Shown: one piece after another, positions 20,188 through 55,418 of the stretch
How the letters are laid out: the number at the start of each line of letters is the position of its first letter
How positions within the stretch are numbered: the first letter of the stretch is position 1
Source: Porphyra umbilicalis
Lineage: Eukaryota; Rhodophyta; Bangiophyceae; Bangiales; Bangiaceae
Direction of reading: 5' to 3'
NCBI GenBank assembly: GCA_002049455.2
Contig: KV919098.1
Coordinates: 17,157-81,156, forward strand
Length of the DNA stretch: 64,000 bases
Notes under the pieces: model-generated
The model's database searches: none
The model's input: only the letters and a program-made list of their open reading frames with translations
Told to the model about the DNA's origin: nothing
Made by a program: the position numbers and the translations under genes

Positions 20188-20378
20188 CTACACAAACCAG
20201 TTGCCAATGCCCGCCACCCCCGACACGAGCGCCCCAAACGACGTGCGGCGGCGCGTGCGGCCGACGCGGTTGCCCCCCTCCCCCCGTCCAACGAGGCGAC
20301 GCCCCGCTCCAACGAGGGTCGCGGCGGCGCACACGCCGCCCGCCCCGCGCCGCCCACGTGGCGCCGCGGCAGCCCCGC

Positions 20379-20417
<39 letters not shown>

Positions 20418-26764: not shown

Positions 26765-27669
26765 GTCGCCGCCGCGTCGGGGAGTGCCCTTTGTCGGGTG
26801 GCCACGCTGGTGAGCCCGGCCGTCGGACCGCCAAAAGAAGAGATAGAGGGGTGTGGAAGAGAGCGTGGCCAAGTGCGCGGGACCCAACACGCGGCGACAG
26901 GGAAAGACCAAGACATTGGCGTGCCCCGCGAGCCCCGTCAGGTGAGTGTTGCCCTGTGGCAGCGGGCGGCGCTTGCGAGGGCAAAGCGAGAGCGGTTTGA
27001 AGCGGCACTGTCTGTGCTCAAGCGTGCTGGGAGCACCGCCTGAGCGCCGCCTGCGGCGCCTGGGACAGCGGTCGTTCTGGGCGCGTCGTGCGTGTCCAAT
27101 GTACCGGGGCGTTAAGGGACCAAACGTAGGACACCGCGGACGGGTGGGCCCCGCGCGGCGGATGGGGATCACAATACCACTGCTTGCGCTGCGGTGCGTA
27201 GGATGAGAGCACCACGGATTGGGTATGTACTGTATGTTGAGAGGCCGGAAAGCGGGCCTGACAAAACCACACGATCAGCTGTCGACTGGGGATCAGGGGA
27301 CCGACTACCAACCCCGCAGCAGCGCGGGCTGGCTCATCCGGCACGCTGGGGCGCACGACGTTGAGCAGGCCACGCAGAAGACATCCAGCTGGATGCCTGC
27401 AGGCAGACGATCGGCGAGCAGATTACAAGAAAGAAGGTATTTAATGTGCAAAATGTTTTCTGTGGATATGTAGTTGATTGATCCTGATGCGTTCGTGCTC
27501 CTTGCTGTCCAGACCGACTGCCAAGCACCAGTTCCACGCCGCTCGTGTCAGTGCGTGCCGCCGACTAGACTACTTCCCAACATCCCGTCCACGCCCCCCA
27601 CTATCCCCCTCACCTCATCATCTCGGCTGTTGTGCGTACTTTCCCTGCCTTTCCTCACCTGCCGTCACC
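26765..27669. other. Divergent intergenic region, nothing recognised
   Basis: Spacer between divergently transcribed genes (LPMO-like to the left on minus, PPPDE to the right on plus), so both promoters should lie here. 27,420-27,660 is less GC-rich with pyrimidine-rich stretches (CCCCCTCACCTCATCATCTC) leading to the CACCATGG start context of the right-hand gene. No TATA box is obvious. Confidence 0.4.
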
Positions 27670-28995: not shown

Positions 28996-29417
28996 CGGGG
29001 GGGGGGAAGGTGGACACCAGTGGAGTTGGACGGCAGGTGCGGAGGTGTGGGAAGGTGGTCGGCAGGCTGGGTGGGGCGGTCGGGTGGTCGGCAGGCTGAG
29101 TGGGGCGGTCGGGTGTTGCTTGCGGGCGGGCGCAGGCACGCACGGCACAGCCGCGGCGCGTGGCAGAGCGGGCGGCCGACCGGTCGCCCACGGCCCTGGG
29201 ACGGCGGCGGGGCAGCGGGCGGGCGAGTCAAGAAGGACACATTTTTGGGTGGCGCCCGGACCGCGCGAGCCGCCCCCCGGCTGCCGCCGCGGACGACCCA
29301 GCGGCCAGCCGCCGCCTCGGGCCACGCGCCCCCCCCCCCGACCGACGGGCGCGCGCCCCCCCCTGCTGTGGCGGGTATCGTCCTGCCCCACTGGGCGGGC
29401 GACGCCGCCCGCCGAGG
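28996..29417. other. Convergent intergenic region
   Basis: Lies between the stop codons of the PPPDE-PUL gene (+) and the CBM48 gene (-). Contains a short tandem GGTGGTCGGCAGGCTG-type repeat at about 29,050-29,105 (two to three copies). No polyadenylation consensus is clear. Confidence 0.5.
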
Positions 29418-31300
29418 TCACCGGTCGGCGCCCCCCCCCCCCTGGCTCTGGCGGCGCGCGGGCTCCCCACCCCCCCCCTCTCCTCCTCCCTCCCCGCCTC
29501 CCCGCCCCGCCCGCGCCGCCTTGGCCGCCCGTGCCCGCGCCCGCTCCGCCCGCCGCCGACACCCGTCTGCGTTGCGCGCGCACAGGGCGCCGTTGGCCCC
29601 CCCCCCCCCCGCCGCCCCATACAACCCCCCCGCCTGCGCGTACAGGGTCGTCGCCTCCCCCCACCGACCCGCGCGCTCGACCGTCACCGCCAAGTGGTGG
29701 ACGATATCCGCTTCCGCCACGCCCCCGCCGGCCACCGCCGCCGCGGCGGCGGCGGAGCGCAGCGCCGCCTCGGCGGCGCCGACGCTGCGGTCGCTGTCGC
29801 CGCCGCCACCGCCGCCGCCGTCGCCGCCCGAGCGGCTCGCCGCGCGCGCGAGGAGCACGTACGCCGACGCGGCGTGCGCGGCGTGGGCGGGCCCGAGCGC
29901 CGACCACGCGGCGGCGGCGCGGGCGGCGAGCGCCGCGGCCGCGACGGGGTCGGCGAGCGCCGTGAGCGCGTGGGTGGCCATCGACGCGTACGCGGCGGCG
30001 GCGGCGGGGGTGGGCGCCGCCGCGAGGGGGGGGGGGGGGGGAGGGGCGCCGTGGGGGGGGGGCCAATGAGGATGGCGCCGGGGGGGGGGGGGGGGGGGGC
30101 GCCCGTGCAGCATTGGCGCGCTGACGACCAGGGCGCCCCCGGGGGCGTCTGCCGCGCCCGCCCGGCCGGGCGCGGGCACGGCCGCGGCGGCGGCGGCGCC
30201 GTCGGCCTTGGCGCCGCCGCCGCTGCCGCCGCTGCCGCCGCCGCCGCCGCTGAGCGCCGCCGCCACCGCCGCCGAGGTGCCACTCCAGCGGGGGAGGGAG
30301 CGCCGCGCGCGGGTGTCCCGCCCCCCTGCCGCGCCGTCGGGCGCGCCCAAGGCGGTCAGCTGGGGTGGGACGCCGCCGCCCCCCCGGCGGGGGAGTGAAA
30401 AGCGGCGCACCCCCGCGCGCGTGCGGGACGCGGCGGCGGCGGCGGCGGGGGGGGGGCCCAGCACGGCGTCGTCGGGCACCCCGACGTCGGGGAGGGAGCC
30501 CGCCGAGGAGGCGGTGCGGCCGCCGCGCCGCCGCCGTGCCGACGGGGGCGGCGTCGCGTCTGGCGGCGACGGGCGGGCGGGGAAGGACGCCGACTCGGCG
30601 GGGAGGGGGAGGGCCACCGTGGGGGGGGGGCGGGGGGGGGGGGACGGCGGGCGCCCCGCGCGGGCGGGCGACGGCGGCGGCTCTGCCGCCGCCGCCGCCC
30701 GTGGGGGCGGGGGCGTCGCCCCTGGGGTGGCGGGCGCCGCGGCCGCCGCGGCGGCGACGGTCAGCTCGTGGGCGCACACGCCCGCAGCGTCGGGGGTGGC
30801 GGCGCCCCCCCCCCCTCGTCGTCGGTCGCCCACCGCCCATCGACAAAAAACTTGTACCGGTGCGTGCCCGGCGGCACGCCCGGCACGGCGCCGACGGCGG
30901 GTCCCCCGCCGGCGGGCCGCACGAGGCGGTGGTGGAGGCCCCCATCCCACGAGCCCGCCACCGACACATTGTCGCCGGGCCCCGTGTAGCAAAAGGTCGT
31001 GCCGCCACCGTCGCCGCCATCGACGGGGGGGGTGGTCGTCGACCGCGTCGGCGGGGCACCCGCCGGCTCCGCGGCGACGCGGGGCGGCGGCGGCAGCGAC
31101 GACGCGGTCGCCGCCCGCGGCCGCGACGGCGCCGACCGCGCGGGCGTCGTTGGCGCCGACGCGGGCGCCGGTGGCGGTGCCGCCGCCGGCTGGCAGCCGC
31201 CCGCGGGCGCAGAGGACGGGCGCGACCAGAGGCGCCGCAGGCCCGCCCAGTGGGATCGGTGGGCGCGGCGGCCGCCCGCCGCGCCGGCGGCCGACGACAT
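29418..31300 (-). CDS. CBM48/AMPK-beta-type glycogen-binding protein with Ala-rich helical C-terminus
   Basis: The start ATG at 31300 gives MSSAAGAAGGRRAHRSHWAG, a basic, hydroxylated N-terminus that could be a transit peptide. About 627 residues. Residues about 101-180 are a starch/glycogen-binding module of the AMPK-beta type: TTFCYTGPGDNVSVAGSWDG, then PGTHRYKFFVDGRWATDDE. The Trp and Lys carbohydrate-contact positions are present. An indel in the C11 run at 30805-30815 is needed to continue into TPDAAGVCAHELTVAAAAA, which closes the fold. The middle is a Ser/Pro/Arg-rich linker (FSLPRRGG, RRSLPRWSG). The C-terminus is two to three Ala-rich helix pairs (AAWSALGPAHAAHAASAYVL, VHHLAVTVERAGRWGEATTL), TPR-like in pattern. 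The AMPK-beta ASC domain that binds alpha/gamma subunits is not recognisable, so a kinase-complex role is doubtful. A floridean-starch-binding scaffold is an alternative inference. Confidence 0.7.
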
Positions 31301-33031
31301 TGGGCGCGCACCGGGGGGGGCCGCCCCTGCGCCGGGGCGGCGCGCGGCGCGCGTCGGGCCGGGAGACGGCGGGGGGGGGGGGAAGCCGCTCGGTCGCCGT
31401 CGGTCGGCGGCGGCGGCAGGGGGGGCGGAGCGCGGCGCGGCCACGGCGGCCGGTCGTTGCGGGGCGCGGCGCGACGTCGGCGGAGCACGGGTGCCGCCGG
31501 GCGGTGGCGCGGGGGGATGCGGTGGGCGCTGCCCGTGGACGCCGGCACGCGGGCGCCCACCGTCGGGGCGCGCGTGGGCGGGGCGGGCGGCGGCGGGTGG
31601 CGCCGCGGGGCGCCCGACGGCGCGCCGATGAGGCGGGGCCGCGGCGTGGCCGCGGACGTGACACGGCGGGGGGGCGGGGAGGCGGCGGCGCGGCGGCCAG
31701 GGAGCAGCGGCGGCAGGCGGCGCGCGCGGCACGCACGCGCGCCGCAGGGGCCCCGTCGGCCGCCGCAGCGGCAAAACGGCCCGGCGGCCAGCGGCAGCGG
31801 CGCCAAGACCGCAAATGCACCGGCAGACGGGGGGGGGAGGGGGGGGGGGCGGGGGGGGTTCCCACGCACAGTGGGGGCGTCGACAGGACGGCCCTGCAAA
31901 CAGGGAGGCGGGGGGTGGTAGCGTCGGCGCTGGATGTAGACGGCGTGGGGCATGGGGACGGCGTGGCGCAGGGAGACAGACGGGTCGGCAGCCGCCCGTT
32001 GTGGGAGTCGAGGCGCGGGGAATGGAACAACCCCGCCGCTGAGGCGTGGGGCCGCGCGTGCGACCCTCCACGCGCCCCGGCACGGGCGAGGGGGGGGGTC
32101 GACGGCAGCACGCAACTGCCCGGCGTCGTCTCTGACGCGCGTTTGGACGGGCGGCGTGCCCCGACACGCCGCCTCGGAGTCGGGGGGGGGTGGGAGGGGG
32201 GGGCAGAGGGGAGACGGGAGGGGGGGTGCGCCCGCTGTGACGACACGCCACACGCGGTGCAGACGGCGGCAGCTGGTCACGCGGCCGCCATCCGTCGCAA
32301 TCGCCGTGGCGCGTCGGCGGCTGGCAGCGCCGCGCGGCCACGCGGCGTGCGCGCCAACGGCCGCGCCACCGCACCGCGCTTCCAGCGGGCCGCCGCTGCC
32401 GGGGCCCCTGCGTGGCGTGGCCGTCGACGTTGGACGGGGGGCCGCGGGAGGTGGGACGGGATCCCCCCCCCCCTGGCAGGTCAGACGCGGGACGCCCCGC
32501 ACCCGGCCGCGCGCGCACGTGTGTGGCCGTTTTTTCTTCTTTAGATGACGGGCGTTGACAGCGGGTGGCGGCGCCGCGACCGCCCGCACGTGGGGGGGGG
32601 GGAACGGGGGCGGGCACGCTGTGTCGAGCAGCGGTGGGTCGGCCCTGCTGTGGCGTCGCAGTGGCACGCATGCCCGGCGGCCAACGCCATTGGCGGTGGG
32701 GGCGCGCGTCGGGGATGGCGGCGGGCGGGGGGTCGCCATCCGCCCGGTCGCCCGCCCCGGGCAAGTGACCACCGGTGGGACGTTGCGTGCGCGGTAGCAG
32801 CGGGCGGCGGGGGTCTGGCGATCCGTGGGCGGGCCCGGCCACCACGGCGCACTGCACGGGAGGCCAGGGAGGGTGTGGTCGATTCAAACATTTGGAGCGC
32901 CCGTTTAAAAAACGCAGCGGGCGGCACCGTGCGGCCCGCCGGGATGTCTGCCAGCCGGTGCCTGCTGTGCCGTCGAGATCCCAGCGCAGTGCTCACTTTC
33001 CTAAAGCCAGGCTCGTGACAAGGGCCGATTT
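31301..33031. other. GC-rich intergenic region, no supported gene
   Basis: Upstream of the CBM48 gene. Many C/G runs (for example 31,829-31,857) and long open frames on both strands, all with Arg/Pro/Ala noise composition. A T-rich patch CGTTTTTTCTTCTTTAG lies at 32,528-32,544 and AT content rises from about 32,880. No domain or tRNA seen. Confidence 0.4.
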
Positions 33032-39415: not shown

Positions 39416-39904
39416 TTGAGACGTGCACACGCCGGCCGACCCCCACACCGTGACAAGCGATCATTGCTTGTGCTTGGTGCATAGGGTGTATCATGCAATG
39501 GGGGACTCGGCCACGCTGGGGCGTACATGTCGTACAGCGAGCGCGACACCCGCCAGCCCAGTTCTATCAAATTCTCAGCCACAAACGTTGTTGTCAATCA
39601 CTGCATATTTTCTTTGGCATTGGCGTCGAGGCTTCATCCAGTTATTTATGCTGAGAAAACGCAGCAGGCCAACTATCGACGTGGCCGCCAATGGGTCACC
39701 TTCGAGGTAAACTCGATAAGGAGTAGCCGCGGCGTGTCTCTCCGGCAACAAAGTCCCGCGGTCGTCGGTCAATGCCACGCCTCCGTCCCCTACACTATGT
39801 CCACGAGTCCGTGCCTGTCAGGCCTACCCACCTCCCGGGAAGTGCTACTTTGAAGTGCCGCCTGCTCCTTGCAAGTGCAGTGCCGACTTGAGAGACATCA
39901 GTAT

Positions 39905-40443
39905 CAGGCCCCACCAAGGGTATCAGATTTGGCCACGAGCACGGTATTCGGCTCTGATCCAGCCACTGAGTATTTGCTGACAGTGCGAAGGACTTTCAGC
40001 CGTTCGAGTATGAGTATCTCCGAAACCTGACAGAGAGGGTATCAAGGGTATATACCCGCGACATTATGGGCTGTCGGTATCCAATTTTGATATTCGCGCG
40101 GGTATGCGTATACCTTTTACTGGAACTAAATTCCAGATCCTGCAGTTAGCTGTTGATTTCGGTAAGTATATTTTAGATTTCGTGACATACTTATTTGTCA
40201 GGCGGCTCACGTGGTGACGGCGCCGCACTGCGGGACGCTGTCAAGGGTATCGGCTTCTGCAGAATTGAGAATACGAGTAGTACTTTCGGATACCCCTGGT
40301 GATTCGATGTCGCGAGTATCTGGCCACGTCCCATTCGCGAGTATGAGTATGGGCGACGCGTCGAAATATCTCACGGGTACGAGTATATACCCGAAAAAAA
40401 TACTCGGGTGATACCCTTGACGAAGTACTCTTGGTGAGGCCTG
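39905..40443 (+). mobile_element. hAT-like non-autonomous element, left copy
   Basis: 539 bases. The left end CAGGCCCCACCAAGGGTATC and the right end, read inverted as CAGGCCTCACCAAGAGTA, form an 18-bp imperfect terminal repeat. AAGGGTATC and GAGTATGAGTAT motifs recur many times near both ends, like subterminal transposase sites. There is no transposase frame. It matches the right copy at about 98% (roughly ten substitutions and a one-base indel). It is AT-richer than the neighbouring genes. Confidence 0.8.
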
Positions 40444-40676
40444 GTGTAGCCGTGACTATGACACGGTGCGAGTCTTGATGCACGTTTCAGCAGAAAGCGT
40501 CACTTGTAGTGTCACTGTTGCAAATTTTGGAGTGCTGGGTTTTTTGTGGAACGACTGTATGTCTACTCTGGGTATGCCTGGCAGTCGACTTGGGACCCGA
40601 CACGGTTGTCGGCGTGCCCGTCGCCGTCGCTCTGCCGGCCCGCGTCGCCCTCGAGGCGCCCCTTTGCCGCGACACC

Positions 40677-41948
40677 ATGCATCGCCTCTGCCTGGCTGCT
40701 CAACCGTCCCTCGTTGTGGCGTCTGCAAGGAAGGCAGCTCCACTAGAGTTGCCGCTTCGTTGGACCCCGCTCTCCACTTCGGCTGCTGCTGGGGCCCCCG
40801 CCGGGAATGGCGACTCGTCTGTCGACGGCAACGGCGGCAGCGGTGGCGGCGGCGGCGGCCGGGGCAATGCCGGCGGCGGCTACGCTAGCAGCAACTGCAG
40901 CGACCGTGTGAGTCCACCCCCCCCCCCCCCCCCCACCCCCGCCACTGACCCCGCCGCCGTCGCCACGGCGTGGTCGGCCGACGGGTCCACCGACGCGCCC
41001 GCGCCCCGCCGGTGGAACGGGGGCGGCCAGCGGGGCGGTGGCTTTGGGCGCCCCCCCGCTGGCGGCGGCGGCGGCGGCGGCGGCTTGCCCGACGACCCCA
41101 TGTTTTCCCACGTTGCCACCGCGGGCATCCCCGACGCCAAAGTGCGCCGCATGGCCGCCATTTACCGGCTGGTGCGGGAGCACGCGGACGCGGCCGCCGG
41201 CGCGGGGCCGCCCGTCGACGCAGAGGCAAACGTGCTCCTCGGCCCGCGGCTGTCGCCCATCCGGTCGCTCCCGCGTGTCGCGCCGGCGGTGCTTGCTGAG
41301 CTGCGCCACCAGCTGCCGGCCGCCGACGCGGCCGACGTGCTCGTCTCGTCGGGGTCGGCGGCGGCGCCAACGGCGGCGGCGGCGGCCGCCGCCGCCGCTG
41401 GCGGAGACGGCCGCGCGGCGGCAGAGGCGGCGCTGTGGCGCCGCGTCGACGCGGCAACGATGGACCCCCACTCGTTTGCGCGCCTCGTGCGCGCGTCGGC
41501 GCTCGGGGCGGGCGGCGCGGCGGGTGCGGCCGGGGCGGCGGCGGGGCGGCGGCGGCGCCCGGCGGCGCCCCGGCGCCCCGGCGGCGGCGGCGAGCTTTGG
41601 CGGCGCTCCCGGGGCGGCCGCTGCCGGCGGGTCCGGCCGCCGCCTCGGCGCCGGCGGCCGCACCGGCCGCACCCGCACCGCCGCGCGCGCGGCGTGCCCC
41701 CTCTCTGACGCCCGCGGGCGGGTGGAGGTGGATTACCGGCAGTTCGAGCTGCTCCGCACCTTTGTCAACCCGAGCGGCCGCCTGCTCGGGCGGCGGGCCA
41801 ACGGGACGACGGCCAAGGCGCAGCGGCGGGTGTCGCGGGCGGTCAAGACGGCGCGGCAGATGGCGCTCCTCGACCCGACCGTGCAAACGCCGATTGCGTA
41901 TGCAGAGGAGGGGATGGTGGGGGGAGGGGGGGGGCGGGCGTCTACTAG
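40677..41948 (+). CDS. Mitochondrial small-subunit ribosomal protein bS18m with long N-terminal extension
   Basis: The start MHRLCLAAQPSLVVASARKA is a basic, acid-free presequence typical of mitochondrial import. A Gly/Pro/Ala-rich extension of about 340 residues follows, including DDPMFSHVATAGIPDAKVRR and LGPRLSPIRSLPRVAPAVLA. One frame change is needed in the GC-rich repeat region about 41,535-41,575. This one is not a simple homopolymer, so a small undetected intron is possible. Downstream is the S18 core: ARGRVEVDYRQFELLRTFVN, RLLGRRANGTTAKAQRRVSR and AVKTARQMALLDP, matching the IDYKDVxLLRxFV...GKILPRRxTGTxAKxQRxLxxAIKRARxxALLP pattern of bacterial S18. A G run (about 41,917-41,936) then obscures the end; the nearest sensible stop is 41,946-41,948. 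Red algal plastids encode their own rps18, hence the mitochondrial assignment (inference). Confidence 0.75.
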
Positions 41949-42260
41949 GGCGGTCGGATTTGGGGCGAGCGTCGGTCTGGGGGGCCGCCGGCTTTGTCGG
42001 TGGCGGCGTCGCGCTGTGGGTTGCTATGAGAGGCGGGCGGCGGGTGCCGCCGCCAATGGCTGCACCGTCCACGTGAAGAATACCGCGATTGTTTGCTTGC
42101 TACAGAACAGCCCGACGCATGCGGACCACCCGAGTCATCTAAGCGTGTGCCCCGTGCTCTGGCCCTCGCCACGGCCCACCCCTCCCCCCCAAAAATTTCC
42201 TCTCGTTGAGGAAAGCACAGAGCTCGGCAACCTGCCGACCGCCGCTGGCGCGCATCCGCC

Positions 42261-43868
42261 TCAGACCGCCGTCACCACAAACCTGGCGTCGACCGGCACG
42301 TCCGTCCACGTCGCGGTGCTCCCGTCACTCCACTCGACCGTCAACTCCTCAATCGCGTCGCGGTCGCCGAGCCCAAAATGCACGACGCGGAGGTCGTCGG
42401 TGATGCCGCTGCCGCCCGCCCCCCCCACCCGCCGCACGATCGAGCGGGTGCTCCCCGTGCCGTCTGCGCTCGCTGCGGTGACCGTCACGAGCGCGTTGGA
42501 CGGTGCCGCCCGCCGGTTCGGACTCCGCCCAACGTCGACGAGCAGCCAGTGGCCACCCCCGTCGTCGGGCAGTGGGGAGGTGTTGGCAAACAGGGACCAG
42601 GAGCCGAGCGGGCCCCGCCCGGCCACCTCATCACCAGCGCCGATGAGCAAGTCGAGCCGCCCGTCGCGGTCATAGTCAAACGCCTGCACCGAGTCGCCCG
42701 CGGCGGGGCTCACCTGGTTGGCACCGTGGTCGGTGGAGGCCGTAAACCCGCCGTCGCCGTCGCCGGTCAACAAGACGTCGGGCCGTGCCACGGCACCGCC
42801 GGCGGCAACCGGCTCAGCAGCGTAGGAGAGGAACACGTCCGTTGCGCCGTCATTGTTGAAATCCCCGACGGTCACATCGCAGTGGCCGCGGTGCTTGCCC
42901 GCTGGCGGCGGGGCGGCGACAAAGCGGGAGTTGCCATCGTTGACCAGCAGCACGTCGGGCTGCCACTGGCGCGCCAGGTACAAGTCCCACCTCCCATCCC
43001 CGTTTACGTCGAGCTCCGCCGCCGCCCAGACACTCGAGCCGATGGACCTGCGGTTCGGGATGTCCCGCAGCCAATGGTAGGTGCGGTCGGCAAACGTAAA
43101 CGGGCTTGTCGCAATGTAGATGCGGAGGAAGGGAAAGGCAACGACATCCATCCAGCCGTCGCCGTTGAGGTCGGTCAGGATGGCGCGCTCGACATTGGCA
43201 TCCTCCAACCCCGAGTCGTTGCGCCGCACGTACACCCCATTGACGTTCTCATACACCCGCTGGCGAGGGCCGGACGCCTTAGGGCTGACAACGTAGTTGA
43301 GGAGGATGAGATCGAGGTCGCCATCGCGGTCCATGTCGACAAGCAGCGGCGTGCGGCCGCGGCCGCCCGTGTCCGCTTCGAGCGTCGTGGCCCGCTGCGC
43401 CTGCTCCAACTTCCGCCTGCGGCCTGCCGAGCGGAGCAGCCGGGGCGTGGCGGGCGCGCCTCCGTTGGCCCCCCCCTGCATGACGATGAAGTCAGACGAG
43501 CCGGTCATGAAAATGTCCCCGGCCGCCATCCCGTGCGCGTCAATGAGAAAGGGGAGCGGGTCCTTCGCACGGGTGAACCGCCCGTTGCGGGTGTTCCAAA
43601 ACAGCTGCAACGCGGTCTGGTCGTGGTTGTTGAGGACGAGGTCGTACCACCCGTCGCCGTCCAAGTCAGAAATAAGGGCGCCGCCCCACTTGGTCGAGGG
43701 GGACGTCTCTAAGCCGACAGCGTCGGTGACGCTCGTCCAAGTCGCGGTGCCGGTGCCATTGACGCCCTCGCCGGCGGCGGCGGTGAGGAGGGCGGCCGCG
43801 GCCACGGTCGCCAAAGCTGTCGCCGCAGCCGTCGCGTACACAGCCAGCGGGTGCTGAGGGATGCCCAT
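42261..43868 (-). CDS. Secreted FG-GAP/VCBS beta-propeller protein with ASPIC/UnbV domain (CRTAC1-like)
   Basis: A single intact exon of 535 residues. The start MGIPQHPLAVYATAAATALA leads a signal peptide (residues about 1-35). Six calcium-binding DxDxDGxxD motifs mark propeller blades: DLDGDGWYD (68-76), DMDRDGDLD (178-186), DLNGDGWMD (233-241), DVNGDGRWD (287-295), DFNNDGATD (336-344) and DYDRDGRLD (398-406). Residues about 455-535 (NALVTVTA...FGLGDRDAIEELTVEWSDGS) form an ASPIC/UnbV domain, as in animal CRTAC1 and bacterial UnbV proteins. An extracellular or secretory-pathway calcium-dependent adhesion role is inferred from the family. An upstream in-frame TTG/CTG-rich stretch is not needed. 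The gene is convergent with mitochondrial S18, about 310 bases away. Confidence 0.9.
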   Translation of the reverse strand: MGIPQHPLAVYATAAATALATVAAAALLTAAAGEGVNGTGTATWTSVTDAVGLETSPSTKWGGALISDLDGDGWYDLVLNNHDQTALQLFWNTRNGRFTRAKDPLPFLIDAHGMAAGDIFMTGSSDFIVMQGGANGGAPATPRLLRSAGRRRKLEQAQRATTLEADTGGRGRTPLLVDMDRDGDLDLILLNYVVSPKASGPRQRVYENVNGVYVRRNDSGLEDANVERAILTDLNGDGWMDVVAFPFLRIYIATSPFTFADRTYHWLRDIPNRRSIGSSVWAAAELDVNGDGRWDLYLARQWQPDVLLVNDGNSRFVAAPPPAGKHRGHCDVTVGDFNNDGATDVFLSYAAEPVAAGGAVARPDVLLTGDGDGGFTASTDHGANQVSPAAGDSVQAFDYDRDGRLDLLIGAGDEVAGRGPLGSWSLFANTSPLPDDGGGHWLLVDVGRSPNRRAAPSNALVTVTAASADGTGSTRSIVRRVGGAGGSGITDDLRVVHFGLGDRDAIEELTVEWSDGSTATWTDVPVDARFVVTAV

Positions 43869-46377
43869 GGTGCAGAGCAAAGTGGCAGACAGCAAAGGAT
43901 GAGACGCAGCAAGTCACCACGACGCCGCGCTCCGAGCCGTGTCGTCGACAGGTACAAAAGAGCGACCAGATGAGTGTGTGTGTCACGCTCTGTCCCGACA
44001 ATGAGCGCCACCTTGTCTTGAAGTTGCAGTCGGTGAACCAGCTCAGAAGCAGACCGGCCTCAAGACAAGAAAAGGGAGTCAAGCCAGAGCGCTGTCAAGC
44101 CGTACACCACCCTCCTCCAACACGCCTACGCCACCCCCACCCCCCCCCCCTACCGCCGCACACCCCGGCACTTGACGGTCGCCGCCCCCCTGCCCCTTCA
44201 CCACGCGTGGGTGCCAGACGAGGTCAACACACTGTCCCCGTGACACTCCCGTCGGCAGGCAACACTGCGCGGCTGTCACAGTCCACCCCGCTCGTCGAGC
44301 TGTCACGCCCTCCGCGTCCTCTGACGCCGTCGCCCGCCGAGCGCTCCGGCACTTGGCGGCCAGAACCCGTTGATCACCCCACCACGCTGCCGGTAGTGGC
44401 CGACACACTGTCCCCGTGACAGTCACGCCGACAACGACGTGCGGCCGTAACCGTCCGCACCGCTCGTCCACTCCCGGCGGCGTCTTCGTGGCCTGCGCCT
44501 GCCACCGCCTTCCACTGATGTCGACGCAGGCCCTTTCCGCCTCCACCCTGACGAGCCGCCGTCGCAGTCCCCCCGTCCCGTGGGTGGCCGTGACACATCG
44601 GTAACACCGAGGTCGCGTCGCGCGCCAAGGCAGCGCGCCGCGGTGGCTCTCAGTCTCGGGCGTCGGGGCGCACGCCACCGGTGCGTCCACCTCGCCTTGG
44701 CGCGCACTTTGCCATGCCGTCCACCGCCCACCTACTTGTACCCGAGCGGGCGCGGGCGACGCGCACACCGACCCCTCCGTTCACCGGGCGGACGGCACGC
44801 GGTCGCCCACCGTCACGCAAGAGGGTTCCCAGGGAGCACCAAGGGCCACCAGAGGGGCGGACGTCCCCTCTTCGCGGCGGCCTCCGCGCAGCCACCGCCA
44901 CTATCCAGGAGGCGGCGGTGCCCCCACCGGGCACAGGTGTTGGTTGCTGGCTGCGCGGGCGCGCCCGGAGGGTCCCCCCCCGGGCTCGGGGCGTCTCTCC
45001 ACGGGCTCGGCATCCACCCCGCGCCACCCCGACGGCCTCCCCGCCGAGCCCCTCCCCGCGCCCCTCCCCGTATCCCTCCCCCCTCGTCCCGACCTCCACC
45101 CGCTTCCCCCGACTCTGCGCTGATGCGCGCAACTCTCCCCCCGGCGATGGGTCGACCGCGGCGCGGCGGCCGGCCGCGCGCCTCCGTGTCGGGAGTCTCG
45201 GGTGCCCACGTTGCGCCGCGCCGCGCGCGGTGCGTGGCGGATGCCGGGGGAACCGGGATCGGCGTGACGTGGCTTGGGTGGCTTGCGGCCAACATGGCGG
45301 CTTGCCAGTCAGGCACCTGGGGGGAAGGGCCCTCCAAGGGGCCGATGCGCCGCTGTAACGAAGGAGAGAGAAGCGGCAGGGAGGGGCGTGGAGGAACGGA
45401 GGTGCTCTCCCCCGCATCGTTGTGGAGCAAGTGCTCCCCCACCGGCAGAGTGGGAGAGCCCCACCTGCTGCGCGGCAGGGAAGCACTGACAGCACTGCCG
45501 GCGGCCGGTGTCATTGCGGACGGGGCGGGCGTTTCACCCCCGGCCGCACCCCTGCACCAACCATCCCACCGTGCCAGCCGATGCACGGGCGGCCGGCAGG
45601 CGCCCCCGCGCGCCCCTCTCACGTGGTCTTTGACCATCGTTTCACCCACCTAGCGTGCCCGTGGCGAGGCGGTGGCGGCCGCCACTGTCATGCCTTCCCG
45701 GTCGGCGGCGGCACAACACTCGACGCCGCGGACGGCGGTGCAGATGCGGAGGGGGGGTCGGCCGGAGCAGAGGCGGAGGGGGGTGCGGCCGGAGCAGAGA
45801 CGAGCACACGCCGCGACGAGGAGGTAGGGGGGAGTGAGTGGTTGGCAGACGCGAGTGGTTGGCAGACGCGCCGACAAGTATTGGCAGCAGCGGCGTTGGT
45901 AGGTGCCCGGGGAATGGGTGCTTGTAGCGGGAGCAGGGGCGCCTGCGAGAGGTGCGGCCGACGAGCCCGCCGGCGGCGCCGCCCAACCCACCGCCCCAGC
46001 CGTACGCACCGCGGGCGGCCACAGCCGTGCGGCGGGCGCGCGCGCCGGTGGCGGCTCGCCGAGCACTCGCTCGGCGGGCGCGCCGCCAGTGCCACACCCA
46101 CCCCCACTGCCACTCCCACCGCCACTGCCACCGCCGTCACGGCACACGGGTGGGCGCAGCAGCGGCACCGCGACCGCCGCCGCTTCGCCGACTGTCGGGG
46201 TGCCAAAGCGCTTGCCCGCCCGACCCCCCCGCGGTGGGTGTCAGGTGGCCGCGCGACCGCCCCCAGCCGCCGCCGAGACCGCCCCGCCGCGTGCGCGCTG
46301 GTGGGGGTGTCAGCGCGCGGGGTGGGCGGCCAAGGGGGCAAGTGCGGGTTGCCGCTCTGCTGCGCATCCAGTCTCGC
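43869..46377. other. Intergenic, no supported gene; includes a degenerate 181-bp direct repeat
   Basis: Upstream of the FG-GAP gene. Two degenerate direct units begin GGCACTTG at 44,167 and 44,348 (period 181) and share CACACTGTCCCCGTGACA. 44,600-46,300 has long open frames on both strands with low-complexity Arg/Pro/Ala content and GGAGCAGAGGCGG-type short repeats near 45,755-45,800. No domain was recognised. Confidence 0.4.
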
Positions 46378-46490
46378 CCCCCCCCCCCCCCCCCCCCCCC
46401 CGCCCCGCCCCCCCCCGCCCCGCCCCCCCCGCCCCGCCCCGCCCCGCCCCGCACCGCACCGCCCCGCCCCGCCCCGCACCGCCCCGCTCC
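46378..46490. repeat. Poly-C followed by (CCCCG)n microsatellite
   Basis: About 22 consecutive C, then CGCCCCGCCCC units with occasional A. Prone to polymerase slippage and assembly error. Confidence 0.9.
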
Positions 46491-46596
46491 CAAAAAGTCC
46501 CCACCGCCGACGCGCCACGGCACCACCGCCGACGGGCGGGCGCCCGTCGATTGCGTCGCGGCACGCCCCACGCCTCGTGCCGCGCCCGTCGCAGTC

Positions 46597-47610
46597 GTCA
46601 GAATAACCTGCAGCCTGGACGGGAGGAAATCCCGTTCAGGGTTTCGTCACGGCACAAGGCCTGAACAAGCGATTCCTTGTTACAATCCCGTCCAGGTGCA
46701 CGGTCCCTGTCGCGAGTGGAAACGCAGCGAAGATCACGTGGTGCGATTAGGATCGATGTGCACGATTATGCCAGGGACGTTAAGACCTGCCTGCACGTCT
46801 GTTATGTTAAGTACTCTTCAAAATGCTGCGTGTCAATTGCATACACTGTGGCTGCGACCCTTCGTCGTCACGACGGACTCCATCCACATCCGACGATGTG
46901 AAGCCGCCGCGATTGTGGACGTCGGGAGCTCGTGAAGAGAGCGCCGCGTCACGGAAGCGTGCGAGTCCTCGACAGACATTGGGCAAGAAACGCAAAATTT
47001 CCAATCGCGAAGCGAATGGAGACGCGCTACGTGCAGCACGGCTTGTTGCTCCGTCGCTGACTTTGCGCGATATTCACGACGAAGTCAGAGGTGGTGACGG
47101 CGTCCGCCGGCGTGAAGAAGACGAGCGCCGATTTGGTCGTGACGACGACGAGGCGGAAGCGAAGTACTCGACTTTTACTACAAAATGCGTAAGTTGTGTT
47201 GCAAGATCTGAGGAACCGACCTCGTGCCGCCGCCTCGGCCACACACGGCGTTCCGGGAGACAGGAACGGTGTCGCAGATAGTCAGGGCCTGAGGCAGGCG
47301 GGAGCTGCGCGGAGAAGAAGGCCTGCAGAGCCAGACCCGTGCAGCGTGCACAACGATCACCTACCATGCGAGATCCAAGCAAACTAAGCCTCTGATTGGC
47401 CGATACTAGCAGTGAGCTCGTGTTTGACCTCGTGACGATCCGGGTGCTGCAAGGAAGAAAAACAGAGCCTGGCAACCTAGCCCTGAACGGGAGTCGCTCT
47501 TGTCCAGGGGTTTGTTACGGCACAAAACCCTGGACGGGAAATCGCTCGTTCAGGGCAACCGACAAGGAAACTCCCGTTCAGACTCCCGTTCAAGTGCACA
47601 CTATTCTGAC
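46597..47610. mobile_element. 1.0-kb element with GTCAGAATA inverted ends
   Basis: GTCAGAATA at 46597-46605 is complemented by TATTCTGAC at 47602-47610. The inverted match continues with TGCA...TGRACGGGA on both sides. Internal short palindromes (ACGGGAGGAAATCCCGT; CCTGGACGGGA / TCCCGTTCAGG pairs) occur near both ends. GTCGCA occurs just outside both ends, but a clean target duplication cannot be fixed. The interior is AT-richer and holds the spliced-looking ORF below. Confidence 0.5.
46823..47188 (+). CDS. Exon-like basic/acidic ORF inside the 1.0-kb element
   Basis: The ATG at 46823 opens MLRVNCIHCGCDPSSSRRTP, then KRASPRQTLGKKRKISNREA (nuclear-localisation-like) and LTLRDIHDEVRGGDGVRRRE with an acidic DDDEAEAKYSTF tail. 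At 47189 the perfect donor GTAAGT appears, so this is probably a first exon; the acceptor and later exons are not identifiable with confidence. Unspliced, the frame runs to 47281. Codon use and composition are unlike the GC3-saturated host genes, which fits a transposon-borne gene. Function unknown. Confidence 0.35.
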
Positions 47611-47783
47611 GGTCGCACGGCGGCGGGACCACCGTCCGCGCGCCGCGTGACACTCGCGCCAGCGCCGAACTAAGCGCGTGTGTGTGCGGCCGCGCGGGGG
47701 ACGAAACGGGGCGCGCGTGTGTGTGCGGCCGCGGGGGATGAAACGGGGCGCGCGCGCGCGCGCGCGGCGCTCGCCGCGGGTGG

Positions 47784-47867
47784 AGGTAGTATTTGACATT
47801 CTCGATCACGTACCGTTTTTTGAGGTAGTATTTGACATTCTCGATCACGTACCGTTTTTTTGGTGCG
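47784..47867. repeat. 39-bp tandem duplication, inverted copy 4.3 kb away
   Basis: AGGTAGTATTTGACATTCTC followed by GATCACGTACCGTTTTTT occurs twice in tandem (47784 and 47823). A third copy lies inverted at 52117-52159 and includes the flanking GGTGCG. The inverted pair brackets the whole C-rich/G-rich repeat region between 47.9 and 52.1 kb. Confidence 0.8.
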
Positions 47868-48129
47868 TGAGGGGGGGGGGGGGGGGCGGCCTGTGCGCGC
47901 GCCACGTGGGGGGATTCAGGGGGCGCGTGGGGGGTGGTTTGGTGGGGGGGCTAGCTCTTTTTGAATTCTGTCGAATTCGTGCCACGATGCGACCTCGTGC
48001 ATTTTTGTACTTGCAATGGAGCTCGTGTCCAGACATAACCGCCCCGACACCGGTGTCTGGCATCACGGTGATTCAGATGGGTGTTGGGCTGTCCTCCTCA
48101 CTCAGCGGGGGGGATCTGCACTGTCACTG

Positions 48130-49065
48130 GGCGTGCAGGAACTGCCGCCCCCGCCCTCGCCGCCGCCGCCACCGCCGCCACCGCGGCCCCCGCACCCGCT
48201 GCCGCCGCCGTCGCCGCCCCCGCCCCCGCCACTGGCCGCGGCTCCGCCACTGGCGCCTCCCCCGCCCCTGGCCGCCTCCCCCGCCCCTAGCCGCCTCCCC
48301 CGCCCCTGGCCGCCTCCCCCGTCCCTGGCCGCCTCCCCCGCCCCTGGCCGCCTCCCCCGTCCCTGGCCGCCTCCCCAGCCCCTGGCCGCCTCCCCAGCCC
48401 CTGGCCGCCTCCCCAGCCCCTGGCCGCCTCCCCCGCCCCTGGCCGCCTCCCCCGCCCCTGGCCGCCTCCTCCGCCCCTGGCCGCCTCCCCCGCCCCTGGC
48501 CGCCTCCCCCGCCCCTGGCCACCTCCCCCGCCCCTGGCCGCCTCCCCCGCCCCTGGCCGCCTCCCCCGCCCCTGGCCGCCTCCCCCGCCCCTGGCCGCCT
48601 CCCCCACCCCTGGCCGCCGCCCCCTCCGCTGGCACCCGCCCCCCCTTCGGGCCACCACGCCCGCTGCTGCCGCAGCCCCTGCCGCCGCCATCGCCGCCAC
48701 CCATGGCCGCGGCCCCCACGCCCGCCGCCGCTCCCGCCCCTGCCTACAGCCCCCGCCGCCGCCGCCGCCCCCGCCCCCGCCTCTGCACTCGCCGCCGCCC
48801 CCGCCGCCGCCCCCGCCCACGCGGCCGCAGCCCCCGCCGCCGCCACCGCCGCCGCCCCTGGACGCGGCCCCCGCCACTGGCGCCGCCGCCGCCGCTGGCC
48901 GCTACCCCGCCTGCTGCCGCTGCTCCCGCCGCCGCCGCCACCCCCGCCCCTTGCCGCGGCCCCCGCCACCGCCGCCGCCCCCGTCCCTGGCTGCAGCCCC
49001 CGCCTCCGCTGCCGCCCCAGCCCCTGGCCGCGGCTCCCGCCGCTGGCGCCGCTCTCGCCCCTGGC
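48130..49065. repeat. C-rich block containing a 19-bp minisatellite
   Basis: From about 48,247 to 48,620 the 19-base unit CTGGCCGCCTCCCCCGCCC repeats some 18-19 times with few variants. Either side is CCGCCGCCCCCG-type sequence. Because 19 is not a multiple of three, translation gives a 19-residue pattern in every frame with no stops, which explains the very long artefactual frames. Confidence 0.9.
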
Positions 49066-50559
49066 CGCCTCCCCTCAGGCTCATTGGAGTGGCGTGGGTA
49101 TTGGGCTGGTGAAAAAGGTGTCGCCGTGGGTGATGGAGGAGGTGGGGTACGGGGTGAGGGGGGAGGATTGGTACTGAGGCGCAGGTGGAGCATGGTACAG
49201 GGTGGGAGGGCAGCGAGGTTTGGGTATGGTCCGAGGTAGCTAACTGGATGGGGGTGGAATCGGGGTACTGACTGGGCGTGTTTCTGGCGACCGGGGCGTG
49301 TAGCCGAGCGGGCGCGGGGAGGTGAATGCGGCGTGTGCTCAAGAGAAACATCTTGGGACCTGTCGCCACATCCTGACCACTGTATTACTGTTTTCTGAGA
49401 TTTGGCCCACTTGGACAGGAACAGGACTGGACCGAAACGTGATCTGATTGGTGCACGTCATTTTTCTGTTGCGCCCATTGGCCGAGGCGGCTGTTTGTGC
49501 CGATGTTGTTCTTGTTCGCATCTGCTAAAATTCAGCAAACAGCAATATTCGGTAAGATCGCTGACACTGCATGGCCCAGTTGATCACACGTCTGTCTGAT
49601 GACACTGCACAATCCAGTGGAATCGTTGGTTGCGCTTCCCTACCTGCCTACAGCAGCTCTCGTTGTGCTTTCACAAAAAAAATACCATTGCACATCACTA
49701 ACAAGGTTATGTGTGCTTCCTGACCAGCTGCGAAAAGAAAAGGTGCTGCTGGGTGCACTTGCTTCACGCGTTCCTTCACTTGTGCAGCCCTGCTCACATC
49801 GGAGGTACGTCGAGCACTTCTGGGACAAACACGAGCAAAACACAACTTTCTTGGAGAGGATCCTTGTTGGGTCTTTGAAGGGCGCTGGTTACGGCATTGT
49901 GGGTCTTTTTGTGCACAAACACTTCTTTCATACCGTTTCTGCCCTCCAAAGGTATCAGTCACCAGTACCCGACACCACCTCCCCAGCCTGCCATACCCAT
50001 CCATACCCCAGGCGTTTTAGCGCACTGCCACCGGCATGTACCAGCCCCTCAGTAGAGCCCAAAAGACGGGACTACTACTATCACAGGAAGCCTAGAGGAC
50101 GTCCTCTGCCACGTACTTTCCCCAGACCTGCCCAGCTATGGGCACGAGCTGCCTACAGAGGTCCCAAGCTATCAAAGTACTCTGAGCCACTCTGGAAGTT
50201 GTGTACACCCCCTGCAAGAAAAGTATCCATGGTATGCGGCCCCCCCACCGACGTGTATACGGCAACTTAACGATTGCTCCTTCCGGCTACGGAAGGCAAC
50301 AAAGTCATGTGGCGGTCAACAACACACTTTACAAGGTGCGTATACACATGGAGTAGCACAGAGACTGTGCGGGCTCCATAGAACTCGCCAGGGAAAAGTA
50401 CAACACGACATTATACCCCCCCCAACTGACCACACCAAACCAGCCCAGTACCCCGACGGCACCTACCCCCGTCCGCCCGAGTCAGGGGGAAGTGGTAGGG
50501 ACAAAAGGCACCCACCTGTGGCGCGAGCCGCCACCAGGGCGGCACCAACGAACGGCTGC
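49066..50559. other. AT-richer island between the two repeat blocks
   Basis: A plus-strand frame from ATG 49599 to 50270 (223 codons, starting MTLHNPVESLVALPYLPTAA) has more Lys, Tyr and Phe than any GC-rich host gene here, for example VEHFWDKHEQNTTFLERILV. It could be a transposon relic or an orphan gene. No family is recognised and no terminal repeats were found directly around it. The rest holds nothing recognisable. Confidence 0.3.
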
Positions 50560-51830
50560 CGCAGCCGCCGCGCGGACGGCAGCAGCCGGCGGCAGCGGCA
50601 GCCGGTGGTGGCGGCGGCGGCAGGCGGCGGCGGCAGGCGGCGGCGACAGGGGACTGCGGCGGCAGAGGTGGTGGCCGGGGGCCGCGGTGGCGGCACGCAA
50701 GGGCGGCGGCGGCAGGGGGCGGGGGCGGCGGCAGCAGGAAGCGGCGGCAGGGGGCAGCGGCGGCGGCGGTGGCGGCAGGAGGCCGCGGCGGTGGCACGCA
50801 GGGGAGGCGGCGGCACGGGGCGGCGGGCGCGGTGGCGGCGGCAGAAGGCGGCAGCGGTGACACGCAGGGGCGGCGGCGGTAGAAGGCAATGGCGGCGGCG
50901 GCAGCGGCGGCAGGGGGCCGTGGCGGTGGTGGCAGCGGCGGCGGCGGCCGCTGGTGGCGGCGACGGCAGGCAGGGAGGGCGGCGGCAGGAGGCAGCGGCG
51001 GCTCCGGCAGCGACACGGGGCGGCGGCGGCGGCAGTGGCGGCAGGGGCTGGCCGGAGAGAGGGCGGCAGGGGCGGCGGCGGCGGCGGGGGCGGCGTGGGC
51101 GGGGGCGGAGGCGACGGCAGCCGCGAGGGCGGCGGGGGCGGCGGGGGCGGGGGCGGGGGCGGCGGCGGCGGGCCGCGGGGGCGGGGGCGGGGGCAGGGGC
51201 AGCGGCGGCGGGGGCGGGGCGGTGGCAGGGGCGGCGGGGGCGGCGGGGCGGCGTGGGTGGGGGCGGCGGGGGCGGGGGCGGGGGCGAGGGCGGGGGTGGC
51301 GGGGGCGGGGGTGACGGGGGCGGGGGCGGCGGGGGCGGGGCGGCGGGGGCGGGGGCGGCGGGGGCGGGGGCGGGGGCGGCGGGCGGGGGCGAGGGCGGGG
51401 GTGGCGGGGGCGGGGGTGACGGGGGCGGGGGCGGCAGGGGCGGGGGCGGGGCGGCGGGCGGGGGCGAGGGCGGGGGTGGCGGGGGCGGGGGCGGGGGCGG
51501 CGGGCGGGGGCGAGGGCGGGGGTGTCGGGGGCGGGGGTGGCGGGGGCGGGGGCGGCGGGCGGGGGCGAGGGCGGGGGTGGCGGGGGCGGGGGCGGCGGGC
51601 GGGGGCGAGGGCGGGGGCGGGGGCGGCGGGGGCGGGGGCGGCGGGGGCGGGGGCGGCGGGGGCGGGGGCGGGGGCGGCGGGCGGGGGCGAGGGCGGGGGT
51701 GGCGGGGGCGGGGGTGGCGGGGGCGGGGCGGCGGGGGCGGGGGCGGGGGCGGCGGGCGGGGGCGAGGGCGGGGGTGGCGGGGGCGGGGCCGGCGCGGGCG
51801 CGGCGGCGATGGCGGTGGCGTGGTCGTCGT
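50560..51830. repeat. G-rich block, (GGGGGC)n-type with quadruplex potential
   Basis: Starts as GGCGGCGGCAG-like sequence and from about 51,090 becomes nearly pure GGGGGCGGGGGCGGCGGGCG units for more than 700 bases. Plus-strand G is extremely high, the mirror of the C-rich block 1.5 kb to the left. Gly-rich frames on plus and Pro-rich frames on minus are compositional artefacts. Confidence 0.9.
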
Positions 51831-52260
51831 GCCCGTCATGACGGTCACGGTTTACACCCCCAGGCGAGGCCTGTTGGTGGGGTCGTGGGTAGCAGTGTAG
51901 GGGGGGGGGCAGTCATGGATTCTGGTCATGCCCGGTCACGCCCACGGTGGGGTGATTACTCATACAGGAGTGCATCCGAGGAGGGTAGGTAAGTATCGAA
52001 CTGGGCACGTGGCACTGTTGGGTGTCGTGGCAGGTCCCGCCGCCGGGCCGGGGAGCGGGCCCGGCGCGGCCGGGCGCGGCCCGCTGGCCGGGCGCCCAGC
52101 GCTGAGAGCGCTTCTCCGCACCAAAAAAACGGTACGTGATCGAGACTTTCAGATACTACATGCGCGGGTGCCACCACGGCTCGCGCGCGGGCAGACGGGT
52201 GCGGGCGGCAACCAATCGCCGCGGGCGCCCCAAACGCGCCGGCCAATGCCGAGCCGCCGG

Positions 52261-54847
52261 CTAGACGATGCCGGTGGCGAGCGCGGCGGCGGCCGCCGCG
52301 TTGCGCTTCTTTCCACCCCCACCGCCGCCGGGCCCCCCGCCATCCCTGTCGTCGTCCGCGTCAGGCGGCGGCGGCCGGCGCTTCCAGTTTGGGGGGCCAC
52401 CGCCCCCCCCCCCCCCCCCCCTTGCGGCCGCCGCCCCCGCCCCCATCACCGCCGTCGTCCTCGTCGCGCACGGGCGCCCACAGGTACACGCTGTAGCTCG
52501 AGCCGGTCGCGAGCACCGCCGCCGTCGGGTGCAACTCGTTGAGCGTGCAAACGGTGTTTAGGCGGGCGTCGGCAAGCGCCGTTGCGTGGCGCCACGCCAG
52601 CCCGTCGGGGGCGTCAAACAGGTCGACGGGGTGCACGGTGACGGGGCGGACGCGTCGGCGGCCCGTCGGCGTCACGCCGACCACCTCCTCCCCGAGGAAG
52701 CGGCCGCACACAAAGCCCGTCTCCCGCCAATTGTCCGCGTGCGGGTCCCAGGACGCGACAAAGGAGGCCGGGTAGCCCGCCCAATCGTGCGAGTGGATGA
52801 GCGTCGACGACGGCGTCGCCGCCGCCGCCGCCGCATGCGCGCGGCCGGCGGGCGCCCCGGCAGGCGCGGGCACCGCCGCCATGGCCTTAAAGTCAAAGCG
52901 GTCGAGGCGGGGGAGGGCGGCCATCCCCACCACCGCGTGCACGTCCCCCCACACCCACACCCGGTTTTCCTGCCCCGTCACGAGCAGCCGCGTGCCCGTG
53001 TGGGGGGAGAAGGCCGCCCCATAGATGGACCGGTTGGCCGTGGCGCCGCCTACGGCGCCGGCGGTGCGGCGGCCGACGCTGCCGCCGCCGCCGCCGCCGG
53101 CACCGCCGCCCGCCGGCAGGCGGCGCACGTCCCACAACCGCACCGCCCGGTCGCTGCCGGCGGTGGCCAACAGCCGCCCGTCGCCGGCATTGACGGCGAC
53201 CGAGTTGACCCGCCGCTGCGCATGCGCGCGCCAGGTGCCCCCGGCCGCCGCCCGGGGCGCCCGCGGGTCCACCCGGTGCACCCGCCCCCGCGAGTCGCCG
53301 ACGTAGACGAGGCCGCTGCCCGCGTCGACAGTCACAGACGCAAAGCCGGTGGCGTCTGCGCACCCCACATCCGCCGCGGCCAAGAGCGTCGTCGTGTGGG
53401 GGGCGGCCGCCCCCCCCGCCCCCGCCCCCGGCTCAAACGCGGCCAGGCACAGCCGCCGTAGGGACCCATCGACGCCCGTCGTGTAGACACCGTCCGCGTC
53501 CCGGGCGGCGTCGGACGCCACCCCAGTCACCGCCGTGCCGCCGACGTGGACCGGCGCGGTTGTGATGCAGTCAGAGACGGCGCCGTCCCCCCCCCCCGTC
53601 CACGCCGAGCAAGTCGTGGCGCCACACCCCCACCGCCCCCGCCGCGTCGGCGGCAACGACCAGCCGCGGGTGGGCGGCCGGCAGGCCGAGGGCGGTCACC
53701 CGCGTCGGCAACATCCGCACCGCCGCGGCGGCAACGGCGACGGCGCCGCCGAGGCGGTGCCGCCGGCGCAGGCGATTGCGGAGGGCGGGGGGGGAGGGGG
53801 TGCTCGCCCGCGCCGCCAAGTAGCGGGGTGTCGTCAGGGCGCCGCGGGGGGGGGCCTCGGCGCGGCGCGAGGCGCGTCGGCCGTGGCGGCGGCACTCCCA
53901 GGGAGCGCCACACCAGCCACCCGGTGGGGACAGTCGGTAAAAATGTGGCCGGCGCGGCGGCAGAGGTAACACTCGCGCACCGGGCAGTAGCGGCGGGCGT
54001 GCCACGGGTCCGCGTCGCAGTAGAGGCAGCGGCCGTCATTGTAGTTAAAGTGGCCAGAACCGACGGGCCGGGGGCCCCGTGGCGTCGCCGCCGCACCAGC
54101 GTCGACGCTGGCGTCGGGGGGGGGGGCGGCCGCCGCGGCGCCGCCCCCGACCGCACCGCCAATGCTGCCGCCCGCGGGGGGCGACGAGCGCAGTGCAGAC
54201 GCGGTGGTGGCCGCCGCCGCGACAGACAGCTCCCTTTGACCAGTGGCGAGTGAGGAGGTCTGCCGCAGAGGTGGGGCCGGCGTTCCCGCTGAAAGACGGC
54301 GGTTGAGGCGCAGGCGCAACGCCGGCCGCGACGGCGTCGACGCGAGGTTGCCGGCATCAGCGCTAGCAACAATGGCGGCGGCGCCACGGGCAGGCGTTAC
54401 CGGCGTGGTCAGAAACGTGTCGCCACGCACCGTCGGGTCACCATCTGCACTTGCATCGTCATCCTCCCAGGTGCGGTCGCTCCCACTGTCACCGTCGCTG
54501 TCATCGTCGGCGCCGCTGTCCCCACGCGGCTCCTCATCGTCGTGGTCGGCGGCAGCGGCACGGACGCCTGCCGCTTCGACAATAGTACGCCTCCGACCGG
54601 AGCGGCGCAACAAGGGGAAAGCGGGAGAGTGGGCGGTGGAAGTCGCTGACGGCGGGCGGTTGATGGCAGTTGTCGACGAGGAGCCGCAACGGTCACGTCG
54701 TGGAGGCGGCTGAGTCGAACAGCAATCGCGACGCCCCCCCAGCGCGCGCTGCGTCGGCGCGCACCGACGCGATCGGGTCGACGGGACAGCCACAAGATCA
54801 ACAAATTCATGCGTTGGATGCACAACGATTCGTGATACTTGATTCAA
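52261..54847 (-). CDS. DDB2-like damaged-DNA-binding protein: CCHC zinc knuckle plus WD40 propeller
   Basis: N-terminal part: an acidic stretch (ADHDDEEPRGDSGADDDSDG), then a Cys-rich knuckle CLYCDADPWHARRYC...CYLCRRAGHIFTDC. A frame change at the G9 run 53846-53854 leads into the first blade (VTALGLPAAHPRLVVAADAA), and another at the C11 run about 53587-53597 into further blades (ATAGSDRAVRLWDVRR, TGQENRVWVWGD). The end is diagnostic: HSHDWAGYPASFVASWDP, CGRFLGEEVVGV and TVCTLNELHPTAAVLATGSS with YSVYLWAP, matching the terminal blades of plant DDB2, which also carry an N-terminal CCHC. After the C19 run 52403-52421 the likely C-terminus is PNWKRRPPPP...KKRNAAAAAA, a nuclear signal, ending at 52261. 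No in-frame ATG is visible at the 5' end, so the start or a first intron is unresolved. The frame opens only 26 bases from the right-hand hAT-like copy. Role: UV-lesion recognition with DDB1-CUL4 (family knowledge). Confidence 0.75.
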
Positions 54848-54872
54848 TTATATACTTGTGTCGCTTCAGCAC

Positions 54873-55410
54873 CAGGCCCCACCAAGGGTATCAGATTTGG
54901 CCACGAGTACGGTATTCGGCTCTGATCCAGCCACTGAGTATTTGCTGACAGTGCGAGGACTTTCAGCCGTTCGAGTATGAGTATCTCCGAAACCTGACAG
55001 AGCGGGTATCAAGGGTATATACCCGCGACATTATGAGCTGTCGGTATCCAATTTTGATATTCGCACGGGTATGCGTATACCTTTTACTGGAACTAAATTC
55101 CAGATCCTGCAGTTAGCTGTTGATTTCGGTAAGTATATTTTAGATTTCGTGACGTACTTATTTGTCAGGCGGCTCACGTGGTGACGGCGCCGCACTGCGG
55201 GACGCTGTCAAGGGTATCGGCTTCTGCAGAATTGAGAATACGAGTAGTACTCTCGGATACCCTTGGTGATTCGACGTTGCGAGTATCTGGCCACGTCCCA
55301 TTCGCGAGTATGAGTATGGGCGACGCGTCAAAATATCTCACGGGTACGAGTATATACCCGAAAAAAATACTCGGGTGATACCCTTGACGAAGTACTCTTG
55401 GTGAGGCCTG
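54873..55410 (+). mobile_element. hAT-like non-autonomous element, right copy
   Basis: 538 bases, same orientation as the left copy at 39905, with identical terminal and subterminal motifs. Left flank TTCAGCAC differs from right flank ATCAGTAT, so this copy lacks its own target duplication. The right flank equals the left flank of the other copy. Confidence 0.8.
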
Positions 55411-55418
55411 ATCAGTAT

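Follow-up and report, generated by a model that had tools for sequence, protein, structure and literature searches.

A block of host genes bounded by two direct copies of a short MITE, E, lies within the window (the whole 64,000-nucleotide stretch of Porphyra umbilicalis DNA analysed, C338:17157-81156), and the best explanation for it is probably macrotransposition, in which a hAT-type transposase would have transposed the whole block via the outermost ends of the two elements. One-step transposition by these ends accounts together for the outer target duplication, the inner sites and the empty target that are described below. This interpretation is drawn from comparisons across the 83.8-Mb, 665-contig assembly, which was covered by the searches.

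The presence of two direct MITE copies bounding positions 39905-55410, observed in an earlier sequence-only reading of this DNA, was confirmed, and their features are given in Table 1. The left copy (EL) and the right copy (ER) are in the same orientation and are 98.0% identical, in agreement with the approximately 98% previously given for copies of 539 and 538 bases, and no open frame of at least 150 aa is present within either of them. The octamer ATCAGTAT was found exactly twice in the 64-kb window, both times at an outer MITE end, as had been claimed when it was said to abut only the two outer ends, and its reverse complement occurs zero times in the window. Based on the composition of the 29 distinct target duplications of the family, 8/8 agreement between two unrelated octamers is expected only about once in 1,115, and the shared outer octamer is therefore more than chance. 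A macrotransposon should have one shared duplication, at the outer ends of its two elements only, and this is the arrangement observed.

Table 1. Features of the MITE-bounded block in the window, with positions counted from the first letter of the window.
Feature	Position	Strand	Remarks
Outer target duplication, left copy	39897..39904		ATCAGTAT, abuts left end of EL
EL, MITE copy, 539 b	39905..40443	+	Ends CAGGCCCCACC...GTGAGGCCTG
Inner flank of EL	40444..40451		GTGTAGCC, the remaining half of EL's first target duplication
Cargo, left part	40444..46597		0.64% substitutions compared with C331:19724-25855
Ribosomal S18 domain	frame 41038-42675	+	Pfam, cargo left part
FG-GAP/ASPIC gene	42264-43895	-	Pfam, cargo left part
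INS1, ~1.0-kb inverted-repeat element	46598..47611		Many genome copies; absent from both C331 units
INS2, 4.38-kb element	47783..52162		Flanked by 8-bp CGCGGGTG at 47775-47782 and 52163-52170; absent from both C331 units
DDB2-like WD40 gene	matches at 52164-53714, also 47673-47732	-	Pfam and named C331 relatives
Cargo, right part	52163..54872		0.67-0.74% substitutions compared with the two C331 units
Inner flank of ER	54865..54872		TTCAGCAC, the remaining half of ER's first target duplication
ER, MITE copy, 538 b	54873..55410	+	Family alignment and flanks
Outer target duplication, right copy	55411..55418		ATCAGTAT, abuts right end of ER

A genome search for further copies of the 538-bp element, as proposed in the sequence-only reading, produced 42 matches, comprising 35 complete copies and 7 pieces of incomplete copies. 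These come from the 40 of 137 first-look candidates that were scored, and the family may therefore be larger than 35 complete copies; the 35 also include single loci repeated across contigs, and C385, C649 and C460 share octamers. The hAT hallmark of an 8-bp target duplication is carried individually by 32 of the 35 complete copies (28 at 8/8 positions and four at 7/8), the three without one of their own being EL, ER and the copy on contig C24. Of the 29 distinct octamers, 27 have T at position 2 and 24 have A at position 7, which fits the nTnnnnAn target preference of the hAT Ac family. The octamers do not follow the nnnTAnnn preference given for the hAT Buster family in the excerpted text of PMC3517528, as T is present at position 4 in 9/29 and A at position 5 in 10/29.

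Two complete direct copies of E were also observed 1.7 kb apart at C385:547-3370 (redundant contig C649). This linked pair was ruled out as a composite, on C385 and C649 alike, because each E has its own duplication; it does offer a ready starting point from which two copies could transpose jointly in the same way.

Larger elements with E-like ends were found at C327:70578-76118 (5.5 kb) and C243:74898-87484 (12.6 kb), and are flanked by the perfect 8-bp duplications CTGCTGAC and CTCAGCAC, respectively. The hAT dimerisation domain PF05699 was matched inside both, that of the C327 element within an 849-aa open frame. E thus shares its short inverted ends with elements in which this domain is matched, the left end being one base different from that of E in 18. 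The description of the MITEs as hAT-like is borne out by the 8-bp duplications together with the hAT domains in these nearly same-ended elements. The 5.5-kb element on C327 is a candidate trans-acting source of transposase for E, and as PF05699 has 133 matches in the genome, the enzyme could equally have come from elsewhere. In the 12.6-kb unit on C243 PF05699 is located near the left end, and this unit may represent either an autonomous element that carries nested insertions or a further large cargo unit.

The inner flanks of EL and ER differ from one another and had been interpreted as the remains of each copy's own insertion. Contig C331 allows them to be compared with a related locus, as it carries two units related to the cargo (19848-32466 and 52729-64687), which are a tandem duplication with the units approximately 33 kb apart. 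The window cargo has 0.6-0.9% substitutions relative to the C331 units, and is collinear with one unit except for INS1 and INS2. In the first unit the left inner site is occupied by an E that is flanked on each side by GTGTAGCC (19177-19184 and 19724-19731) and followed by the cargo, and the second unit has a left edge without E. At the right inner site both units have TTCAGCAC once, followed by CCCAATC, with neither an E nor a footprint. The filled GTGTAGCC site and the empty TTCAGCAC sites bear out the earlier interpretation, and they show that the right flank of EL and the left flank of ER are each half of an earlier single insertion of that element, as should be the case in a macrotransposon. 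Similarity to C331 starts at the left end of EL and stops at the inner site of ER, and for the DNA outside EL and ER there was no C331 match of at least 200 b and at least 85% identity, nor at 100 b and 88%.

The tandem arrangement of the C331 units would also suit a Composite Insertion, in which transposition by reversed ends is accompanied by re-replication and the product is resolved by recombination between tandem units. Such products are known in maize, and one was resolved by recombination between repeats, according to the excerpted text of PMC4270019. The window cargo is, however, collinear with single C331 units and, the two transposon insertions aside, has no junction inside it. E copies would also be needed at the facing ends of neighbouring units, and the second C331 unit is without E at its left edge. 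A Composite Insertion is therefore considered very unlikely.

The variants within the E copies bear on the choice between macrotransposition and homologous recombination. In the latter, a single E would have been present first at ATCAGTAT, and the cargo would later have come to lie between two E ends, either through a pair of ectopic crossovers or because an excised E-cargo circle integrated into that E, leaving the same flanks as macrotransposition. Copies of E are numerous, with a mean difference of 22 substitutions in ~539 positions, and at alignment columns 215 and 260 there are variants common to EL, ER and the C24 repeat of ER alone, and absent from the C331 E, which indicates that exchange between E copies has happened. 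The structure of C24 (see below) further points to a rearrangement at a different repeat, INS2. However, the variants at columns 132 and 393 are confined to EL and the C331 E within the set of 35 complete copies, which is what movement of an intact EL out of a C331-like site would produce. These restrict the left crossover to roughly the opening 131 of 539 positions, or one quarter of E, and so make recombination less probable; the circle version requires two such breakpoints. One more E insertion and further events would be needed, and no E with ATCAGTAT on both sides was found among the 35 complete copies. Recombination is thus regarded as improbable, and macrotransposition is preferred.

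The state of the target before insertion was examined by joining 300 b from the end of the left flank to 300 b from the start of the right flank, with ATCAGTAT included once. Alignments of this construct extend across the junction in C234, C87 and C88, and partly in C1. Identical positions number 230/293 on the left and 207/289 on the right in each of C234 and C87, 215/286 and 173/249 in C88, and 48/59 (only 59 left positions align) and 152/203 in C1. Given their nearly equal alignment scores, C234 and C87 may be one locus assembled twice. The junction reads AGCAGTAT in C234 and C87, the same with one extra base in C1, and CGGCGTAT in C88, and no octamer repeat is present there in any of the four. 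As a control, 200 joins to farther right-hand DNA were made, and these matched at most 76 right-hand positions compared with 207 (C234 only). Paralogous DNA runs uninterrupted across the joined flanks, and on the evidence of these alignments the block in the window is therefore an insertion whose limits are the outer ends of the two MITEs. The target was contiguous beforehand, as expected for a macrotransposon, judging from the paralogous empty sites on C234, C87 and C88, and partly C1. The proposal of a composite moved by its outermost ends is accordingly supported by the ATCAGTAT pair, the C331 inner sites and this contiguous paralogous target.

The nature of the target family was also considered. 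Pfam searches of ten frames from the outer flanks returned no family, and a 724-aa frame in the right flank matched two unnamed proteins, with one relative at 94%. At C1:456308-473022, ~15.7 kb of other DNA seems to split a target-family paralogue, and does so at a point different from that of the composite.

The history envisaged under macrotransposition would begin with insertion of an E beside the gene block at GTGTAGCC, a state that is still present on C331. A second E, in the same orientation, would have inserted at TTCAGCAC in one lineage of the block. A hAT transposase acting in trans would then have treated the two outermost ends, the left one of the left E and the right one of the right E, as those of a single transposon, and the whole block would have been inserted into repeat-family DNA at ATCAGTAT, duplicating those 8 bp. 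We infer from these comparisons the single transposase reaction, its transposase and this order of events; INS1 and INS2 may have entered before or after the jump.

No donor with E at both inner sites was present among the 35 complete copies. An excision scar was sought using 500 b from either outer flank of the donor, and none was detected among the best 40 of 62 and the best 40 of 135 candidates scored. Both donor flanks were matched on C331, C446, C147, C53, C46 and C22, and on the last five contigs the pairs lie at least 7 kb apart. The pair on C446 is 13.6 kb apart with cargo in between, and its left piece ends 61 b before the junction. The right-hand donor flank was also matched on C353, C114 and C615. 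As neither a donor with both MITEs nor an excision scar was found, the block may have been either moved or copied. Therefore, of the original claim that the pair had relocated a multi-gene block, the insertion of a gene block stands, but relocation as opposed to copying does not follow.

Ten chosen cargo frames were searched against Pfam and three had matches, to ribosomal S18, FG-GAP/ASPIC and WD40. The C331 relatives of the WD40 protein are named DNA damage-binding protein 2, and four Pyropia vietnamensis relatives are listed for the ASPIC protein. The cargo genes had been thought to be apparently single-copy, and this was contradicted by 95-99% matches to the first 4 kb of the cargo outside the window, of which two are on C331 and the others, both incomplete, on C434 and C446. 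The DDB2-like copy in the window looks interrupted near its 3' end, as INS2 separates the part that matches the final 20 residues of one of those C331 relatives from the remainder. The C434 cargo copy and a neighbouring similar-ended element were evaluated as a second composite and rejected, as the element has its own duplication, GTTATTAA, and is thus an ordinary insertion.

Both INS1 and INS2 are repeated in the genome. INS2 is a GC-rich repeat of ~4.4 kb with the imperfect ends GAGGTAGTAT/CATGTAGTAT, and in the window its left end occurs twice in tandem. Contigs C24 (INS2 from C24:140323 onward) and C338 are alike from INS2 to the right flank, and have different DNA to the left of INS2. Between the two there are 6 substitutions in 8,552 positions of the right flank (48 gap columns in ~8,600) and 19 in 2,678 positions of the right part of the cargo, the latter in three clusters, of which the two inspected adjoin gaps. 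The C24 E copy and ER have no substitution and four gap columns between them, and INS2 has 76 substitutions in 4,323 aligned positions, with 339 gap columns. Given the few right-flank substitutions and the clustering of those in the cargo, the right-hand stretch of C24 is taken as the ER region assembled a second time, and on the same grounds it was rejected as an older-diverged allele (BLAST identity ~97%).

The disagreement to the left of INS2 implies that at least one of the contigs is mis-joined, or that the DNA is heterogeneous, and the block could in that case be an assembly artefact, with C338 mis-joined at the E or INS2 repeats. The octamers on the two sides of INS2 match in C338, but the left one is non-matching in C24. 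C338 is therefore taken as the coherent, ancestral arrangement, and C24 as mis-joined or rearranged at INS2. The junction of cargo, TTCAGCAC, E and ATCAGTAT is furthermore present in two contigs, whose E copies differ by four gap columns only, and the window cargo differs from both C331 units and carries its own insertions. The outer octamers and the paralogues also agree, and an artefact appears the least probable of the explanations considered here. As a possible rearrangement partner, C68 has an identical 300-b INS2 start; it was discarded as its flanks beyond INS2 are unlike those of the window or C24.

The block, read as a macrotransposon, shows that a natural genome outside the green plants keeps the expected traces of such an event, namely an outer duplication that is new, the two older inner sites and an empty target in paralogous DNA. 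A multi-gene host segment could in this manner be spread by as little as two minimal non-coding MITEs, and the signature to seek in any genome is two MITEs without their own duplications and with matching outer octamers. As a more doubtful extension, hAT MITEs mobilised in trans might act as end pieces of large host-gene transposons in red algae of the order Bangiales, in a continuing spread of gene clusters, with the C385 pair and the C243 unit as further candidates.

The original papers on maize Ac/Ds macrotransposons are reportedly those of Huang & Dooner in 2008 and Wang et al. in 2022. Macrotransposition is a known kind of event, and a MITE-bounded, gene-carrying, natural red-algal example was not met in the open-licence literature, where titles and the starts of abstracts gave no algal or MITE-bounded case. 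In the excerpts of PMC9319602, PMC3744419, PMC2775673 and PMC3527283 the term was confined to the reference lists.

In maize lines with active Ac/Ds, macrotransposition is documented in the excerpted texts of PMC3260210 and PMC9910405, in which the outermost ends of two hAT elements move the DNA between them. The window block resembles these in that intervening DNA would move as one unit by such ends, with 8-bp duplications. It differs in that the ends are 0.54-kb red-algal MITEs, the cargo consists of host genes, and the event was reconstructed from a natural genome and not followed genetically. According to the excerpted text of PMC4270019, the maize p1 Composite Insertions are likewise segmental duplications bounded by transposon ends and in principle remobile, but they are joined inside from two re-replicated segments, whereas the window cargo is collinear with one donor-type unit.

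A further parallel, and the nearest idea encountered in the open-licence literature, is a mosquito MITE, which is proposed in the excerpt of PMC1562414 to have originated by en-bloc macrotransposition of two P elements, the middle being deleted. In both cases neighbouring copies would transpose together with the DNA between them; in the mosquito the MITE is the product, whereas in the window MITEs form both ends and the DNA between them is retained. Lastly, E is similar to the Drosophila hAT MITE Mar, as portrayed in the same portion of PMC3517528, in being short and non-coding with CAG-type ends and 8-bp duplications, and the two differ in target preference, which is nnnTAnnn (Buster) for Mar and nTnnnnAn for E.
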